Source of the DNA: a candidate division WOR-3 bacterium
GTDB lineage: Bacteria > Hydrothermota > Tepidihabitantia > Tepidihabitantales > Tepidihabitantaceae
Direction: 5' to 3'
Assembly: GCA_039801365.1 (NCBI GenBank)
Contig: JBDRUN010000015.1
Location: 1 to 35,741, forward strand
DNA length: 35,741 nucleotides
A model generated the notes under the pieces. The model was not told where the DNA came from and made no database searches. It saw only the letters and a program-made list of their open reading frames with translations. The translations under genes were made by a program, and so were the position numbers. Every line of letters starts with the position of its first letter. Position 1 is the first letter of the stretch. This document shows, one piece after another, positions 5,358 to 35,707 of the stretch.

Positions 5358-6213
5358 AGTTTGTCAAGCTGCCTAGACACTCACCAGTCTCGGACCGGCT
5401 TTCCTCAACTTGCTCCGAGTCATGTCCGGTCTGAGATTCGTCTTCCTTCCCGTCCTTCTCCTGCTCGTCTTGACCGCTTTCAGCACCCGCAACCACAACC
5501 ACAGTCTCGCCCTTGAGCTCGCGATCTGCAAACCTAGCGAGAACATCGCTCAGCGTCCCGCGGACAACCTCCTCAAACTTCTTCGTCAACTCTCGACCTA
5601 CCACCACTCTGCGCTCACCCCACAACTCACGCATTTCGGCAAGAAGCCGCGCCAGCCGGCGGGGTGACTCGTAGAATACCATCGTCCGCTGTTCGTTCTT
5701 AAGACCTGCAAGCCGTTTACGACGCCGACCTTCCCGTTTGGGCAAGAAACCTTCAAATGCAAATCGGTCCGACGGCAGACCGGAAACAACAAGTGCTGCA
5801 AGGATAGCCGACGCACCGGGCACCGCAACTACCCGCAAACCTTTCTCAATTGCAGCGCGAATCAGATAGAACCCGGGGTCAGATATGCCCGGGGTACCTG
5901 CGTCGGTGACCAGTGCTACCCGCTTGCCCTGCACAATCATTTCCAGAACTTCCGGCGTCCGGCTCAGCTTGTTGTACTCATGATAGGAAACCAATCTGGC
6001 TTTCACACCGAAGTGGCCCAATAGGAGTCCGGTGCGCCGTGTGTCCTCACAGGCGACCGCGTCCACCCAGGCCAGCACGTCGAGCGCTCGCAGTGTCATA
6101 TCACCGAGATTGCCGATTGGTGTCGAAACCACGTAGAGACCAGGTTCAAGAGAACCTTGGCCTACAGCGCTTCCGCTGGAACGCAGCGGCCGCTTATTGC
6201 CGCTTCGGCTCAT
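5341..6213 (-). CDS. rsmI: 16S rRNA (cytidine-1402-2'-O)-methyltransferase RsmI
   Basis: RsmI methylates the ribose of C1402 in the ribosomal P site, using SAM. The 290-residue protein has the tetrapyrrole-methylase-like fold, with [15 protein letters not shown] near 29-43, [21 protein letters not shown] and VPGASA, all characteristic of RsmI. After about residue 245 the family domain ends. The remaining tail of some 45 residues is acidic and low in complexity (many Glu, Asp, Gln, Ser) and looks like a lineage-specific addition. The ATG at 6213 overlaps the rpoD stop as ATGA, implying translational coupling. Confidence 0.95.
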
Positions 6214-8030
6214 TTCAGAAGATCACGCAGCGCTTCGAACTTGCGCAGCCGCACCGGGTGTCGCAGTTTCTTCAGCGCCTTGGCCTCAATCTGTCGCACA
6301 CGCTCGCGGGTGATATTGAATATCTGACCGACTTCCTCGAGTGTTCGCGGGCAACCGTCGCCCAAGCCGAAACGCAAACGCAGCACCTTCTCCTCTCGCT
6401 TGGTCAGGACCTTGAGTGCGCTTTCAAGCTTCTCGGCCAGTAGTGACACGCCTGCCGCATGAGATGGCGAAGCGGTCTTTTCATCGCAGATGAAATCACC
6501 AATGAAACTTGACTCGTCATCATCCACCGGCTTGTCCAACGAGACACCGAACTGCGATATCCTAGTCAACGCCTCAATCTTGTCCTTGGGCGTTGACAGC
6601 CGCTGGGCCAGCTCCGCAACCGACGCCTCACGGCCGTGTTCCTGCATGAACTTACGCTGAATCTTGCCCACCTTGTTGATAGCATCAATAATGTGAGCCG
6701 GCACTCGCACAGTGCGGGACTGATCCGCTATTGCCCGGGTTATTGCCTGCTTTATCCACCACGTCGCATAGGTAGAAAACTTGAACCCCTTGCGGTAGTT
6801 GAACTTCTCGACTGCCTTGATGAGACCGACGTTACCTTCTTCCAGAAGGTCGGCAAACTCAAGACCCCGATTGACATACCGCTTGGCGATCGAGATCACC
6901 AGACGAACATTGCCCTCGATCATCTTGTCGCGGGCCGCAATTATTCTCTTTTCGCACCGAGCCATCTCCTCAAGATTTCTTCTAATTTCTGGTATGCTAC
7001 AGCCTAGAAACACCTGTTCCTGCTTGAGTTGCGCCCGCAGTTGCTTGACTTCATCGGCGCTGCGTCCTTCGGCCCTTGCCCGCTGAATCTTCTCGTGACA
7101 CTCAAGCGCCCGCCGTGCAGCATCTTTGAACTGGCCGATGAAGACGTTGATAAGTTGATGCTGAAGTGCGAGTTTCTTGATCCAGTTTACAACCCTCTGC
7201 CGCGCCTCCTCGACCTTGAACCTTGTCCTGCGTCCCGGTCGCTTACTACCCCGCTCGATGCTATCAATCCAGTCGGCCTCGCGGCGAATCCGGTGAATGA
7301 TCGAAACGAACCGCTGCCGGTCACGGGAAAGCGCCTTCTGGTCAAACAGGCATTCGAACTCGACGCGTGCAACTTGGTCGAGTGATTTGGTGCCGTCCTC
7401 AATTGCTGCGCACTCATTGACCAGTTGACGCATAATCGCTACCGGCCGGAACAGAAACTCGATTATACTGTCGTACCCCTCCTCCATTTCACGGGAGTAG
7501 TATATCTCCTCCTCCCTCGTCAGCAGCGGCAGCTTGGACAGCTCCCGGAAATAGGACTTGGTCGGGTCCTCGGTGCGCTGGATAACCGGCCTTGGGCCTC
7601 GGCGCATCACTGGCAACTCTTCTTCCCGGCTCTCCGTTACCCTGATGCCATCCCTGGCCAGCTCAGTAATGAGTTCATCAAGCTGTCGTGAAGATGTCAG
7701 TACCTCGTCAGGCAGCAAGTCATCAAGTTCCTCGTAGGTGATGCGTTTGTCTTGGGCTGCCTTCTGGTAAACTGACTCCAGCCACCCCACGCGCTTTAGC
7801 CGGGCCTCTCGGGTCGCTTCGGTCACAAGCTCCTGTTCCTCGTTCTCGGTTGCGGGTGGCAGTTGCTCATCCATGTACGACTTCAACTTGACCTCAGAGC
7901 CGTCGTCTCGGCCGCAAGGATATCCGGTTCGACTCGCCCGCGGCTTGGCACGGGTCCGGAACGGAGAGCCTGCAGACCCTATTTTCCTTTTTGCTGACGT
8001 TTTCTTCCGTTCTTTCCTTCTGTCGCTCAT
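6210..8030 (-). CDS. rpoD: RNA polymerase primary sigma factor RpoD
   Basis: This is the housekeeping sigma factor, 606 residues. Region 1.2 is seen at [21 protein letters not shown]. Region 2 contains [19 protein letters not shown] and the melting and -10 recognition stretch [17 protein letters not shown]. Region 4 ends with the helix-turn-helix [21 protein letters not shown] long basic and acidic non-conserved segment separates regions 1.2 and 2. The N-terminal 50 residues are very basic and not typical; Met53 is an alternative start. The ATG at 8030 is preferred because it overlaps the dnaG stop as ATGA and has AAAGGAG at 8040-8046, nine bases upstream. The rpsU-dnaG-rpoD order is the classic macromolecular synthesis cluster, here with mutS2 between rpsU and dnaG. 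Confidence 0.96.
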
Positions 8031-30565: not shown

Positions 30566-31738
30566 ATGAAACGGGTCAGGACTACCCTTGCTTTTCCCAA
30601 AGAGTTAGGCGAACGCCTGCGCGGAATCAGAAAGAAGGCAGGGCTGACCCAGACAGAACTCGCCACGTTGATGGGAAGAAATGGTACCGGCGCACACAAC
30701 CAGATTTCGCGTCTGGAGAGAGGAATACAACCCTTTCCATCCCTGGCCTTGATTGCGGACTACCTGCGGGCCTGCCGGGCACGGTTTGCGGACCTTCTCG
30801 ACATCCTGGACTCATACACGTCACAGCCTGTGGTATCAGACGCCGAAACAGAAGCGGCCCTGACCAGACTTACCCAGCAACTACCCAGTGACGCCAGCTC
30901 AGCCGTTATCAAGTATGAGAAGAAAACGACGAACCGACAAGCAATGCCAACGGTCGGCAAGAGGCCGGTACTACTTAGTCCGGCGCAGCGTGTGCTACGG
31001 ATGCAGAAGATGTTTGCCCGTCAATACCACAGCGAGGTTCTGGAGGCCAGTCTGCACCGGGCGCTCGTCGGGCTGGGTAAAGCCGTACCTTTATCGCTTC
31101 AGCGGGTAACCTGCGACTACGGCAGGAAAGTGTTTGCTGCCCTTGTACGCGGACGGAAACTCGTACCTCAATGCAGGACCGAATTGCCGCGGCGGGGAGT
31201 CGCAGCCGCGATTCAGACAAAGCTCAACCGGATAAGAGCAAAGGCGCGAAAGCACGGGGTCACAGAAAAGGCCCTGGAAGCGATGGCGTCGGCTGCTCAG
31301 CAGGCCTATGACCAGTTGAATCGCGAACGCCGACTGGACTGGATTCCGAGTCCGCAGGAAATCGCCGCCCTGGGTATCAGACCTTTCAAGGTGACCAAAG
31401 CAGAGACTAGGATGGAATTGGCTGCGGCCCGAGCGGACGGAGACTATTGGAAGCAGCGGGAGTTCATCAAGGTTCTGATTGCACTTAAGGTTGACAAGAA
31501 GCTGGACAAGCTGCATCTGGACTCGGACGTAAGACGGAACGTATGGCTGTGGGTAGGGACGCTTTTCGATGTCCTTGCCGACAGGGGCAAAGAAGCAGCC
31601 GCCCGGCTGGCCAAGGTCGGCATGCGCCGGGTGAAGGATAAAGTCCTAACCAGAGACATCGCTGACAAAGTCTTTGAGCTATTTGAGAGGTACGAGCAGA
31701 AGCTGAAGCCCCGGCCGCCAGAAGAATCCCGAACCTGA
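30566..31738 (+). CDS. XRE-family helix-turn-helix protein with unknown C-terminal domain
   Basis: From the ATG at 30566 the protein has 390 residues; a longer frame starting at 30497 adds 23 unlikely residues. Residues about 12-75 are a Cro/C1-type helix-turn-helix (LGERLRGIRKKAGLTQTELATLMG, then NQISRLERGIQPFPSLALIADYL). After a Ser/Thr-rich linker, residues 135-390 are mainly helical and very basic and match no family I know. They include MQKMFARQYHSEVLEASLH, LNRIRAKARKHGVTEKALEAM and a helix-rich end. No signal peptide or membrane segment is seen. It is isolated from the neighbouring operons. It probably binds DNA, but its target and the role of the C-terminal part are unknown. Confidence 0.75.
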   Translation: MKRVRTTLAFPKELGERLRGIRKKAGLTQTELATLMGRNGTGAHNQISRLERGIQPFPSLALIADYLRACRARFADLLDILDSYTSQPVVSDAETEAALTRLTQQLPSDASSAVIKYEKKTTNRQAMPTVGKRPVLLSPAQRVLRMQKMFARQYHSEVLEASLHRALVGLGKAVPLSLQRVTCDYGRKVFAALVRGRKLVPQCRTELPRRGVAAAIQTKLNRIRAKARKHGVTEKALEAMASAAQQAYDQLNRERRLDWIPSPQEIAALGIRPFKVTKAETRMELAAARADGDYWKQREFIKVLIALKVDKKLDKLHLDSDVRRNVWLWVGTLFDVLADRGKEAAARLAKVGMRRVKDKVLTRDIADKVFELFERYEQKLKPRPPEESRT

Positions 31739-31775
31739 ACGCTCCGGGCCCGCGAAAACTTTGCTGCACAACGAA

Positions 31776-31791
31776 ACAGCATACCTGCTGT
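31776..31791 (+). terminator. possible stem-loop after the HTH gene
   Basis: ACAGCA (31776-31781) and TGCTGT (31786-31791) form a perfect six-pair stem with a four-base loop, 40 bases after the HTH-gene stop. No T-run follows, so it is a weak terminator candidate. Bases between it and the promoter at 31923 hold nothing I can identify. Confidence 0.3.
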
Positions 31792-31922
31792 CGCAAGCCA
31801 AGGTCTGCCTCCGCCAACCAGTACCCGACTCGCTTCCTTACTGCCGGTTCGGTCTCAACACGAGTTGTTCGGTTTTGCCGCGGTTCCTTGGCAAGCCATG
31901 TCGTCTCCCGTTTCTCGCGCTC

Positions 31923-31950
31923 TTGACCTGGTCACGAATCCGGCTAGTAT
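31923..31950 (+). promoter_or_regulatory. promoter of the cobalamin riboswitch and receptor gene
   Basis: TTGACC (31923-31928) and TAGTAT (31945-31950) are separated by 16 bases. Transcription would begin around 31957, just before the riboswitch, which fits the expected layout. Confidence 0.5.
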
Positions 31951-31974
31951 CCAGGCAGAAACGCGGCGGAAGAC

Positions 31975-32142
31975 CGTCTTGGAACGGTAGCCAGGCCGGA
32001 TACCCAATTTCGCGTCTGGCTCAGGGAAAGCCGTGAAAATCGGCTGCGGTCACGCCCACTGTAAGTACCGCGCGTGCTTCTGCCATGCCACTGGCCTCGG
32101 GCCGGGAAGGCGGCAGAAGATGGTATAAGCCAGGAGACCTTT
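31975..32142 (+). ncRNA. cobalamin (AdoCbl-type) riboswitch
   Basis: Landmarks of the class appear in order. AGGGAA is at 32023-32028. The stem-loop GCCG-TGAAAAT-CGGC spans 32030-32044. CACGCCCACTGTAA begins at 32051. A second GCCACTGG with a GC-rich stem (GGCCTCGGGCC) follows, and the B12 box AAGCCAGGAGACCT is at 32127-32140. These are the known B12-element core motifs; edges are approximate. Downstream, GGCTG-ATT-CAGCC (32154-32166) forms a hairpin shortly before the ribosome binding site AAGGAG (32175-32180). Control is therefore more likely at translation than by termination. When B12 binds, receptor synthesis should fall. Confidence 0.92.
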
Positions 32143-32186
32143 TCGCCGCAAATGGCTGATTCAGCCTGCGATGAAAGGAGAATCGG

Positions 32187-34394
32187 ATGAAGACAGTACC
32201 CAAGTGGCCAGACAGGCGAATGGTCAAGCGGGGGGAAGCAGACCGAAAACAGAAAAACAGGGCACCCGGCAACAAGAGAATAGAAGGGTGGACAACTAAG
32301 TGGCTCGCACTCGGTATCGCGCTTGCGTTCGGGCACGCGAGTGCGGTGACATATCGAGGCCAAGTCCTCGATGCCTGCACCCGCCAGCCTGTCCCCTACG
32401 CAGCAATTGTTGCGCAGGACGGCACTGCGGCTTATGCCGACGATAAGGGCCGGTTTGAACTGACCTTGGAGACCGACACCCTTACAGTCGAGGTTTTCCA
32501 CGTCGGTTACCTGACGCGCACGGCAACGCTTGCCAAAACAAGTCGCAACACCACCGTTTTCCTCACGCCTGAGGTCATCAGCCTGAAGGGCGTAACTGTC
32601 ACCGCATTCCGCACCCCGGTACCCCTTGGCCGGTCCGGCCCGGTAGCCATAGTCGAACGCGAGTCGGCAACCCGCTTCGGCAACACCGACCTGGCCGCGG
32701 CCCTGCGCCGTACCGTATCCGCAGTCAGCCGTGACAACGTCAATTTCTCAAGCGTGACCCTGCGCGGCACCAATGCCGAGCATGTATTGGTAGCAATTGA
32801 CGGCATCCGGCTAAACTCGGCCCAGAACGGCACATTTGACATGACTACCCTGCCGGTCGCGCTTGCTGACCGGATCGAGGTCGTCCGGGGCGGCAACTCT
32901 TCGCTCTACGGCACGAGCCCGGTCGGCGGAATGATAAATCTGCTGACCCCAGACCCGGCCGGCCTTGGTGCCTGGCTACGCGCCGGCGTTGGTGCGCTGG
33001 GCGAACGTCGCGTCGAGGTAACACACGGGCAACGGGTAAGGCACTTCGGCTACGCGGTCGGCAGCACTTGGTCGCAGACTAAGAACGGCTTTGCGTACAA
33101 CGACGACTCAGGTGGCACGGCAACAATGACTAACGCCGACCGCAGTTCACTCAACGCCTTTGGCAAAGCACTGTACTCAACGGCCGCACACCGTGCGAGC
33201 CTTTTTGCCGAGTATGCTTCGAGCGCACGCGGGGTACCAGGCTCGCGGCGCTTGCCGAGCGACGACGCCCGGCGCGATGACACTCGCGGCCTGTTCATCG
33301 GCCGCTACCAGTTCCAGCCGGGTGAATGGCTGCGCGCCGGCATCACCGGTTACCGGCTCAACCAGTGGCAAAACTACCGCGACCCAGATTCACTGTTTCC
33401 GACTAGCGACACCCATTGCCTGGCGGACATGGGCATTCACCTCGAAGCTGCTTTCTACCCGGCCGACTGGGCACTGGTGATGACCGGGTTTGAACTTGAC
33501 GACCACCGGCTGCGAAGCACGACCGTCGGCACGCCTGGGCGGCTGGACATCGCCGGTTGGACTCAGGTCCGGTTCGAGGCCAGCCGGTTCAATGCTACAC
33601 CTCAAGCACGCTTCGAGGCGCTGCAAGGGGCACCGTTCTCAAGCACGCTCGCCAGGCCTGCGACAACAACTGTGTTCAGCCCGAAGCTGACTCTGAACTG
33701 GTCTGTGCTCAACTGGCTTAGTATCTTCGCTGGCCTGGGCCGCTCTTTCCGGGCCCCCGGCCTCAACGACCTATACTGGCCTGAGGACGCCTGGTCGTAC
33801 GGCAACAAGGACCTGAGGCCAGAGTTCGGCACCGGCATTGACCTCGGGTTCAGCGGCCGGCCCGCGAAAGGACTGGCGTGCCGGTTTGGTGGCTACCGCA
33901 CTACCCTGACCGACCTCATCCAGTGGCAGCCTGACACATCGTTCCGCTATCGGCCGGTAAATGTGGCGGCTGCGACTATCACCGGCATCGAAGCTGAGGC
34001 TGAATTCGACCTTGGCTTGGCTGGACTTGACGCAAATCTCAACTGGTCTCAAGCCAAGTCTGACGGTAAGCGGCTGTACTACCGACCTGACCTTACCATG
34101 CGAACCGTGCTCTGGGCTAGAGTCGGGTTACAACCGTTGGACATCCGGCTCGACCTCGGGGTCGAGCATTCCAGCGACCGACTCTCCGACCCGGTGTACC
34201 CGGAAACCGAACCGCGCACGCTGGCTGGATTCACACTGCTCGACGCCGCGGCCGCAGTCTGCCCGCGCATCGGCCTGCAGAACACAGTCGTCCGATTCGG
34301 TGTCAGAAACATCCTCGACACACACTACCAGACGGTTGACTTCTATCCGAATCCGGGCCGCACCTGGTTCTCGGAGCTGGAACTGGGAATTTAG
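32187..34394 (+). CDS. TonB-dependent receptor, probable cobalamin transporter (BtuB-like)
   Basis: This 735-residue outer-membrane receptor lies directly under a cobalamin riboswitch, which points to B12 or corrinoid uptake. Its signal segment WLALGIALAFGHASA (39-53) follows an unusually long charged N-terminus. Residues 55-130 form a carboxypeptidase-regulatory-like domain (GQVLDACTRQPVPYAAIVAQDG), common in Bacteroidota-type receptors. The plug domain at about 145-260 has VTLRGTNAEHVLVAIDGIRLN and IEVVRGGNSSLYGTSPVGGMINL, and the 22-strand barrel follows (SFRAPGLNDLYWPED, GVRNILDTHYQTVDFYPNPGRTW). The ATG has AAGGAG six bases upstream. No TonB, ExbB or ABC transporter genes are in the window. 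The stop overlaps the convergent peptidase gene. Confidence 0.93.
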   Translation: MKTVPKWPDRRMVKRGEADRKQKNRAPGNKRIEGWTTKWLALGIALAFGHASAVTYRGQVLDACTRQPVPYAAIVAQDGTAAYADDKGRFELTLETDTLTVEVFHVGYLTRTATLAKTSRNTTVFLTPEVISLKGVTVTAFRTPVPLGRSGPVAIVERESATRFGNTDLAAALRRTVSAVSRDNVNFSSVTLRGTNAEHVLVAIDGIRLNSAQNGTFDMTTLPVALADRIEVVRGGNSSLYGTSPVGGMINLLTPDPAGLGAWLRAGVGALGERRVEVTHGQRVRHFGYAVGSTWSQTKNGFAYNDDSGGTATMTNADRSSLNAFGKALYSTAAHRASLFAEYASSARGVPGSRRLPSDDARRDDTRGLFIGRYQFQPGEWLRAGITGYRLNQWQNYRDPDSLFPTSDTHCLADMGIHLEAAFYPADWALVMTGFELDDHRLRSTTVGTPGRLDIAGWTQVRFEASRFNATPQARFEALQGAPFSSTLARPATTTVFSPKLTLNWSVLNWLSIFAGLGRSFRAPGLNDLYWPEDAWSYGNKDLRPEFGTGIDLGFSGRPAKGLACRFGGYRTTLTDLIQWQPDTSFRYRPVNVAAATITGIEAEAEFDLGLAGLDANLNWSQAKSDGKRLYYRPDLTMRTVLWARVGLQPLDIRLDLGVEHSSDRLSDPVYPETEPRTLAGFTLLDAAAAVCPRIGLQNTVVRFGVRNILDTHYQTVDFYPNPGRTWFSELELGI

Positions 34395-35707
34395 CGACCA
34401 GCGGCTGAGTCAGTGGACAGCATGTCCGGAACAGCCGACGCAAGCGCCTGCTGGATTTCCGCAATGTATCCATCTCTGACCTGCTTGAACTCGTCCATGT
34501 ACTTTGCCGGTACCGGCTCGGCCCGAGGTGGAATAACCTTCAGGGGGTTGACTGGTTTACCTGCCTGCCTTATTTCGAAGTGCAGGTGCGGCCCGGTCGC
34601 GTCTCCGGTCGTACCGACGTAGCCGACTGTCTGACCCTGACGCACGGTCCGGCCCGATCTAACCCCGGGTCCGAACCCGGAAAGATGACCGTAGCGGGAT
34701 GACAGCCCACCCGAGTGGCGCACCTCAACCAGATTACCGTACCCCCCACGCCAGCCAGCAAAGGTGACCGAACCATCAGCAATCGCCGACACCGGCGTAC
34801 CCGAAGGTGCGCCGTAATCAACCCCCGCGTGCTGGCGATAGACCCGATAGATGGGATGGAACCGCATCCCGAAATGAGACGTGACCTTGCTGAACTCCAA
34901 TGGCGAACGCAGAATGGCCTTACGCAGTGACTGCCCCTTCTCGTTATAGTAGTCCCAGTGCCCACTCGGCAACACATAGAAGAAACCCCAGGTATTGTCG
35001 GTTTTGCCCCGATAGTGCACCGCACGCACTCGGCCGTACCGATAGAACCGCCCCTCGACCAGAAGCTTGTCAACGATGACCTGAAACGAGTCACCATCGT
35101 TTGACTCAGTGAAGAAGTCCACGTCGTAACGCAGTATGTCGGTAAAGCTCATCGCCAGCCACGGCTTCTCACCCAGGGCCAGCAGCGAATTCCAGAACGA
35201 TACTTTCACCAAGCCGTGCACCACCGCACGCACGGTATCAACCGGCTTGGTGGACTTTGTCGCCACGGCTCCGGTCGAATCGAACGCAACTCCGTAACTC
35301 GTGACCATATCATTGTGATAGGTCAGGCTGACAAGCTGAAGCCCTCGGTACGCAAGCGTCACTGAGTCGCCCGGCCGCAGATGCCGGAACGGAAAGTCAG
35401 TCTTGGCGAGTGCGGCCTCAGCCCGGTTCGCCATATCCTTCGGCACGCCGAGCCGGACCAGCATTCCAGTCAGCAGCTCATCCTTATACATCGTGTCTCC
35501 GCCAAAAAACGTCGAATCCGGCGACGGCAACTCCGGACCGCACCTCGGCCGTGGCCTGCGGCTCAACACGAGGAACAACACCGTCCCAAGCGCCAGCAGA
35601 CCGATTGCGACAATCATCGCCGGTTGACCCCTGAAACCAGGTGTCGGAATCCTGGATTCTGGCTTCGACCCCGGTGTCGGAGTAGGCTCGAACCCGTCAC
35701 TCATCAC
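34391..35707 (-). CDS. M23 family membrane-anchored peptidoglycan peptidase
   Basis: The protein of 438 residues probably cleaves peptide cross-links of peptidoglycan in the periplasm. A Pro/Ser-rich cytoplasmic tail (1-30) precedes one membrane segment, AMIVAIGLLALGTVLFLVLS. A middle region (75-265) resembles the LysM/OapA-like part of MepM-type proteins. The M23 domain has HAGVDYGAP (His292 and Asp296, approximate), the GNLVEVRHSGGLSSRYGHL segment and HLHFEI (near 373-375), so all metal ligands are present. The start is GTG 35707 or ATG 35704; the gene upstream is outside the window. The tail is encoded by a heptanucleotide tract. The last four bases overlap the receptor gene tail to tail. 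Confidence 0.92.
   Translation of the reverse strand: MMSDGFEPTPTPGSKPESRIPTPGFRGQPAMIVAIGLLALGTVLFLVLSRRPRPRCGPELPSPDSTFFGGDTMYKDELLTGMLVRLGVPKDMANRAEAALAKTDFPFRHLRPGDSVTLAYRGLQLVSLTYHNDMVTSYGVAFDSTGAVATKSTKPVDTVRAVVHGLVKVSFWNSLLALGEKPWLAMSFTDILRYDVDFFTESNDGDSFQVIVDKLLVEGRFYRYGRVRAVHYRGKTDNTWGFFYVLPSGHWDYYNEKGQSLRKAILRSPLEFSKVTSHFGMRFHPIYRVYRQHAGVDYGAPSGTPVSAIADGSVTFAGWRGGYGNLVEVRHSGGLSSRYGHLSGFGPGVRSGRTVRQGQTVGYVGTTGDATGPHLHFEIRQAGKPVNPLKVIPPRAEPVPAKYMDEFKQVRDGYIAEIQQALASAVPDMLSTDSAAGR
35627..35675 (+). repeat. seven-unit heptanucleotide tract at the 5' end of the M23 gene
   Basis: In-phase units are ACCCCTG, AAACCAG, GTGTCGG, AATCCTG, GATTCTG, GCTTCGA and CCCCGGT. Three fit NNYYCTG exactly and the others partly. 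The tract encodes the Pro/Ser/Arg-rich tail before the membrane segment. Confidence 0.5.

Follow-up and report, generated by a model that had tools for sequence, protein, structure and literature searches.

Cobalamin riboswitches on the genes of outer-membrane vitamin B12 receptors are a thoroughly known kind of control element, and the locus described here is of this kind. In the E. coli btuB riboswitch and in env8HyCbl, both of which act on translation, a kissing loop stabilises P13 and thereby the hairpin that holds the ribosome binding site, as set out in the sections of the source used here (PMC10653944). According to the same sections, the L5-L13 contact of btuB consists of five contiguous pairs, and that of env8HyCbl contains a mismatch and a bulge and acts on the ribosome binding site hairpin (PMC10653944). 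In Bacteroides thetaiotaomicron, an excerpt on the BtuB loci describes riboswitch-controlled B12 transporters that occur with BtuG (PMC10404256). The locus studied here lies in a candidate division WOR-3 bacterium, in a stretch of 35,741 nucleotides (the window) that is the entire contig 15 of a draft genome of 2.51 Mb (95.6% complete, 124 contigs). It shares with E. coli btuB the aptamer family, the type of target (an outer-membrane B12 receptor) and a P13 hairpin whose L5-L13 contact bears on the ribosome binding site; with env8HyCbl it shares an irregular kissing loop on that hairpin, and with the Bacteroides loci a B12 receptor under a B12 riboswitch. We consider it very likely that this element is a translational OFF switch for vitamin B12 uptake, and the sequence features make it most likely that B12 shuts off translation of its own receptor. 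What is added here is a bulged kissing loop supported by covariation, a genome-wide check for corrinoid import, and the question of the adenosylcobalamin source in a cell with no recognisable adenosyltransferase. A literature search over a partial library, on WOR-3 together with cobalamin or vitamin B12, found no prior report of this system.

The aptamer core is firmly placed. An Rfam scan of the whole window gave RF00174 (Cobalamin) as the only family above threshold, at 32023-32140 on the forward strand, with 72.2 bits (E 4e-16) against a gathering score of 31.5 bits, and this match is also the only one in the 2.5 Mb draft genome. The sequence-only reading had called a cobalamin riboswitch here and named the covariance search as its check, and the call was borne out by a wide margin. 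The match spans model positions 45-169 of 189, leaving out 1-44 and 170-189, and the P1 helix lies outside it; P1 was found through the complementarity of 31963-31972 (5' strand) with 32140-32149 (3' strand), both on the forward strand, with 10 pairs, 8 of them Watson-Crick. P1 was sought in relatives by a simple search for the longest complement, whose best helix was not P1 in 3 of 15 cases (G011, G012, G016), and the minimum free energy fold of the whole element was set aside for the aptamer structure. The env8HyCbl riboswitch binds hydroxocobalamin with a minimal aptamer, whereas the window has a longer RF00174 core with a CCACUG...GGGAAGGC extension that is aligned within the match. Under the class I subtype rule, a peripheral P6 extension together with the J6/3 sequence marks the adenosylcobalamin type, and the longer core with its extension suggests that the window aptamer would be of this type. 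Upstream, the promoter that had also been proposed survives in part: a sigma-70-like motif, TTGACC-16-TAGTAT with 9 of 12 consensus bases, is present at 31923-31950 (forward strand) as the single such site in 31700-34500, but such a site is weak evidence when taken alone, and because shuffled sequences average 0.5 sites the promoter is plausible rather than shown.

With the L5 consensus UCCCG, as given in the sections of the source used here (PMC10653944), L5 could be placed at 32050-32055 (UCACGC, forward strand) and its pairing with L13 at 32168-32174 (GCG-A-UGA, forward strand) was found. All six L5 bases form Watson-Crick pairs with L13, and one base, A32171, is bulged, as compared with the five contiguous pairs of E. 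coli btuB. A hairpin at CCACUG...CGGGAAGG was also tried as L5 and was rejected, as it showed no conserved pairing with the platform. Likewise, an anti-aptamer contact between a CGCAAG box of the relatives and CUUGCG in the platform was dropped, because the window reads GUAUAAG there, as judged by eye.

The pairing was counted across a sample of 100 genomes, comprising the organism's own genome and relatives up to the phylum. L5 and L13 could be extracted by pattern at 49 of the 90 riboswitch places in this sample; the other 41 were dropped for having no L5 or no Shine-Dalgarno hairpin pattern. The 16 rows from the GTDB family hold 7 distinct L5/L13 combinations, in which 40 of 42 pairs are formed, a number equalled in 86 of 20,000 partner shuffles; for all 49 rows, with 16 distinct combinations, the figures are 80 of 96 pairs and 21 of 20,000 shuffles, and in both counts some of the sequences are those on which the kissing loop was first noticed. 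Sliding the loop register by up to four bases gave at most 24 of 42 pairs in the family and 49 of 96 in all rows. Counted in the fixed register, two family members (G001 and G007) form 4 of 6 pairs; among rows from other families, G023, G025, G026 and G027 form 4-5 of 6, and G042, G046 and G034, with 0-1 of 6, could have been extracted wrongly. All of these rows were nevertheless kept in the counts.

Covariation was assessed on aligned family sequences; 11 of the 16 were used, and the five with longer stretches between the loops were left out. In this alignment 91.5% of the kissing-loop cells pair, against 84.1% in shuffles (0 of 500 as high) and 42-56% in slid registers; none of the 500 shuffles attained the covariation score, and the number of cells with two-sided changes lay above all 500. 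Two other measures were no better than shuffles, namely the number of pairs changed on both sides (5 against 4.1, with 189 of 500 shuffles as high) and the number of further pair types (12 against 13.3, 463 of 500 as high). Both partners have changed among relatives at three of the six kissing pairs. One of these is A-U in the window alone, where four of the 11 sequences have C-G and another four U-A, so that the window's own L5 change is compensated in L13. This bears on whether the element could be a decayed riboswitch without function, as might be thought from a local Rfam match (45-169) that scores below many relatives. Decay would not be expected to leave the L5/L13 pair compensated and P1 complete, and we therefore regard it as extremely improbable. 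The same covarying loop offers a natural mutation series for loop control of a ribosome binding site.

The expression platform directly precedes the receptor gene. The P13 sequestering hairpin occupies 32156-32186 (forward strand), as placed from the fold of the tail and from relatives. According to the fold prediction, its outer stem pairs CUGAUUC (32156-32162) with GAAUCGG (32180-32186), and inside it CCU (32165-32167) pairs with AGG (32176-32178) of the ribosome binding site, so that, in comparison with E. coli btuB, the strand pairing with the ribosome binding site sits inside P13. The Shine-Dalgarno sequence AAAGGAG lies at 32174-32180 (forward strand), 6 nt 5' of the ATG, and its AAAGGA is invariant in 11 of 11 aligned family members; the outer stem of P13 pairs in 84.8% of the alignment cells, and its innermost pair in 7 of 11 sequences. 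A second hairpin, GGCUG-AUU-CAGCC at 32154-32166 (forward strand, -5.5 kcal/mol alone), excludes P13. The hairpin next to the ribosome binding site that had been noticed from the letters hence exists in two forms that exclude each other, one at 32156-32186 and one at 32154-32166. In the alternative fold of the tail, the 32154-32166 hairpin is accompanied by a 4-bp CGAU/AUCG hairpin with AAAGGAG in its loop. Tail folds with the 32154-32166 hairpin were predicted at -9.4 and -9.1 kcal/mol against -10.9 kcal/mol for P13, a gap of about 1.5 kcal/mol, and P13 is thus predicted to be the more stable even without ligand. By eye, the 32154-32166 hairpin is not obviously common to relatives, and the predicted alternative fold, which would be the ON state, seems specific to the window sequence.

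These hairpins also bear on the level of control. Some cobalamin riboswitches act on transcription, an example in the sections of the source used here being P. megaterium metE (PMC10653944), and the window element might do so through a terminator. However, no terminator-like site was found between the aptamer and the ATG, and the predicted hairpins involve the ribosome binding site, in an arrangement common to the family. Transcriptional control is therefore very unlikely in our view, and control of translation is the reading that we follow below.

The gene under the switch (32187-34394, forward strand) encodes a TonB-dependent receptor of 735 aa with a CarbopepD_reg_2 domain (residues 57-138), a plug (PF07715, 151-248) and a barrel (PF00593, 282-709), all above the Pfam cut-offs, just as the sequence-only reading had described it, with a carboxypeptidase-like N-terminal domain. 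This additional domain is not part of the TIGR01779 vitamin B12 receptor family. It is present in 11 of 12 aligned family receptors, and all BLAST matches to the window receptor from beyond the family begin at residue 91 or later, a hint that the domain could be particular to the GTDB family. Among named sequences, the receptor is closest to two from candidate division WOR-3 MAGs (L061 and L062), with identities of 49% and 45%.

The substrate of the receptor was approached by three comparisons. The best NCBIfam model is TIGR01779 (E 5.5e-56, residues 133-728), but the score of 190.4 bits is far below the curated equivalog cut-off of 599.7 bits, and the protein was for this reason filed as BtuB-like and not as a member of TIGR01779. 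In a PDB search with a profile of 12 family members, the first ten matches were B12 transporters, eight of them by name and two (8bmx and 8p97) by their structure titles, with 1nqf as the best (1.5e-43). An AlphaFold2 model of moderate quality (pLDDT 72.6, pTM 0.71) was submitted to Foldseek, and the first 14 of 735 matches were structures of BtuB or of Bacteroides B12 transporters, among the latter 8blw, 8bmx, 8p97 and 8p98; the heme receptor ChuA came 15th. The designation BtuB-like is thus well supported by these sequence and fold comparisons, and the earlier proposal that the riboswitch assigns a probable substrate to the receptor agrees with its closest relatives by sequence and by fold being B12 receptors. 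A probable substrate is thereby given to a receptor that would otherwise be annotated generically.

A real switch could nevertheless sit on a receptor for another cargo, such as cobalt chelates, heme or a siderophore, with B12 serving only as the signal. In the fold alignments the receptor is only about 20-23% identical to E. coli BtuB, the TIGR01779 cut-off was missed, and heme receptors score too. On the other hand, B12 receptors came top in all three comparisons, and the four other PF00593 receptors of the genome are lower on TIGR01779 than the window receptor (158.0, 55.6 and 32.4 bits, and one without a listed match, against 190.4 bits); the nearest of them, L034, fits the hemin and the B12 models to about the same degree. 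The switch and a similar receptor are also kept together across the phylum. RF00174 matches were found in 86 of the 100 genomes, above the cut-off in 85, and these 86 genomes supply the 90 places. At 76 of the 90, the window included, the next ORF resembles the window receptor with E values up to 1e-3 (1e-10 or better at 73 of them), a resemblance that indicates a TonB-dependent receptor and not by itself a B12 receptor. Within the GTDB family the switch is present in 16 of 18 genomes and the receptor follows at 15 of the 16 places, the contig at the sixteenth ending after 89 codons. Taken with the comparisons above, this makes transport of another cargo very improbable, and uptake of B12 is the probable function that we assign to the receptor in what follows.

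The surroundings of the gene carry little that relates to B12. Of the 122 overlapping ORFs listed for the window, 28 were chosen for Pfam scans, and besides the receptor they are mostly housekeeping genes, named here from their Pfam matches: rho, prfA, rpoD (the sigma-70 factor gene, 6213-8030), dnaG, dnaK, lpxC, lpxA, ispH and genes with S1 domains. The lipid A genes lpxC and lpxA are consistent with a cell that bears an outer membrane. It had been claimed that no transport partners or B12 synthesis genes lie nearby, and this holds for the 28 scanned ORFs, among which no B12 transport gene was found and the sole tetrapyrrole methylase is RsmI, an rRNA enzyme. The locus differs here from the Bacteroides thetaiotaomicron BtuB loci, as no partner-like gene was seen among these ORFs (the Pfam scan having no BtuG-specific model) and a BtuF-C-D-like operon is on another contig, as are the other B12 transport partner genes of the genome. 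An M23 peptidase gene (34391-35707, reverse strand) is convergent with the receptor gene and overlaps its end by four bases, and in each of the 7 family loci checked by Pfam such a convergent gene follows the receptor.

The search for btuCDF, TonB and cob genes that had been proposed along with corrinoid import returned a consistent picture. A single FecCD permease is encoded in the genome, and its operon also includes genes for a periplasmic binding protein and an ABC ATPase. None of these BtuF, BtuC and BtuD candidates scores high enough for the curated cut-offs of the NCBIfam models for B12 transport, and other models score about equally for the ATPase. The contig of this operon also bears genes for S-adenosylmethionine synthetase, adenosylhomocysteinase and serine hydroxymethyltransferase. 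TonB_C and ExbD had 5 matches each in the genome. The single PF00590 match of the genome is the window's RsmI (5542-6138), a 16S rRNA methylase above its curated cut-off, so that no corrin-ring methylase was found, and CobS had no match in the genome. An estimated 4.4% of the genome is missing, which makes single gene absences weak, but the absence of the whole ring-methylase set is strong evidence for auxotrophy. From these searches for transport genes, ring methylases and CobS, the cell appears unable to make corrin rings and is probably a corrinoid importer, in line with what the sequence-only reading had suggested.

Uses for an imported corrinoid are also encoded. B12-binding domains occur at three loci of the genome, one of which is a methylmalonyl-CoA mutase operon with MeaB. 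Methylmalonyl-CoA mutase needs adenosylcobalamin. The genome (G000) has this mutase, and neither PduO-type nor CobA-type adenosyltransferases (PF01923 and PF02572) had a match in it; NrdJ had no match either. The second locus (L059:1268-5086, contig 25) has four genes, for an MTTB-type methyltransferase, a protein that matches the MetH activation domain only, a corrinoid protein nearest to MtgC models and a homocysteine methyltransferase. By analogy, with MtgBCD as the comparison system (from an excerpt of PMC12478193), this operon looks like a split methionine synthase that would be fed by a methylated amine and not by methyl-folate. The third (L060:3578-7859, contig 7) holds genes for a corrinoid protein, two 2-hydroxyglutaryl-CoA dehydratase D-type (HGD-D) proteins and a URO-D-type protein, and is a putative corrinoid methyl-transfer locus.

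Taken together, these parts suggest a simple feedback. Intracellular corrinoid, probably adenosylcobalamin, would bind the aptamer, and the kissing loop would lock P13, by which ribosome access would be blocked and the receptor would not be made. Without ligand, the tail would refold into the 32154-32166 hairpin and the 4-bp hairpin that exposes AAAGGAG in its loop, and the receptor would be translated. Energised by TonB-ExbBD, it would bring corrinoid into the periplasm, from where the BtuF-C-D-like system would take it over to supply methylmalonyl-CoA mutase and the corrinoid methyltransferases. This marks the uncultured, probable WOR-3 lineage as likely to be auxotrophic for B12 and to import it, knowledge that can serve both the design of cultivation media and the modelling of B12 exchange. 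A wider proposal, which we find doubtful, is that many WOR-3 cobalamin riboswitches share a distinct platform, in which the kissing loop, made of six pairs and one bulged base, lies inside the hairpin holding the Shine-Dalgarno sequence, and that the switch here guards the outer-membrane step of a cell without a recognisable adenosyltransferase, which would need to take up adenosylcobalamin in finished form and to sense it directly.

At 14 of the 90 places in the sample the riboswitch is followed by something other than a similar receptor. Ten of these were scanned with Pfam, giving two periplasmic binding proteins, four ECF substrate components, one CobU, one anaerobic ribonucleotide reductase, one beta-propeller protein and one without a match. 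The four ECF transporter substrate components (L005, L008, L010 and L016) come from four related genomes and likely belong to a cobalamin ECF system. The anaerobic (class III) ribonucleotide reductase gene (L171:403-2625, genome G096) has the cobalamin riboswitch match on its 5' side with 39.3 bits.
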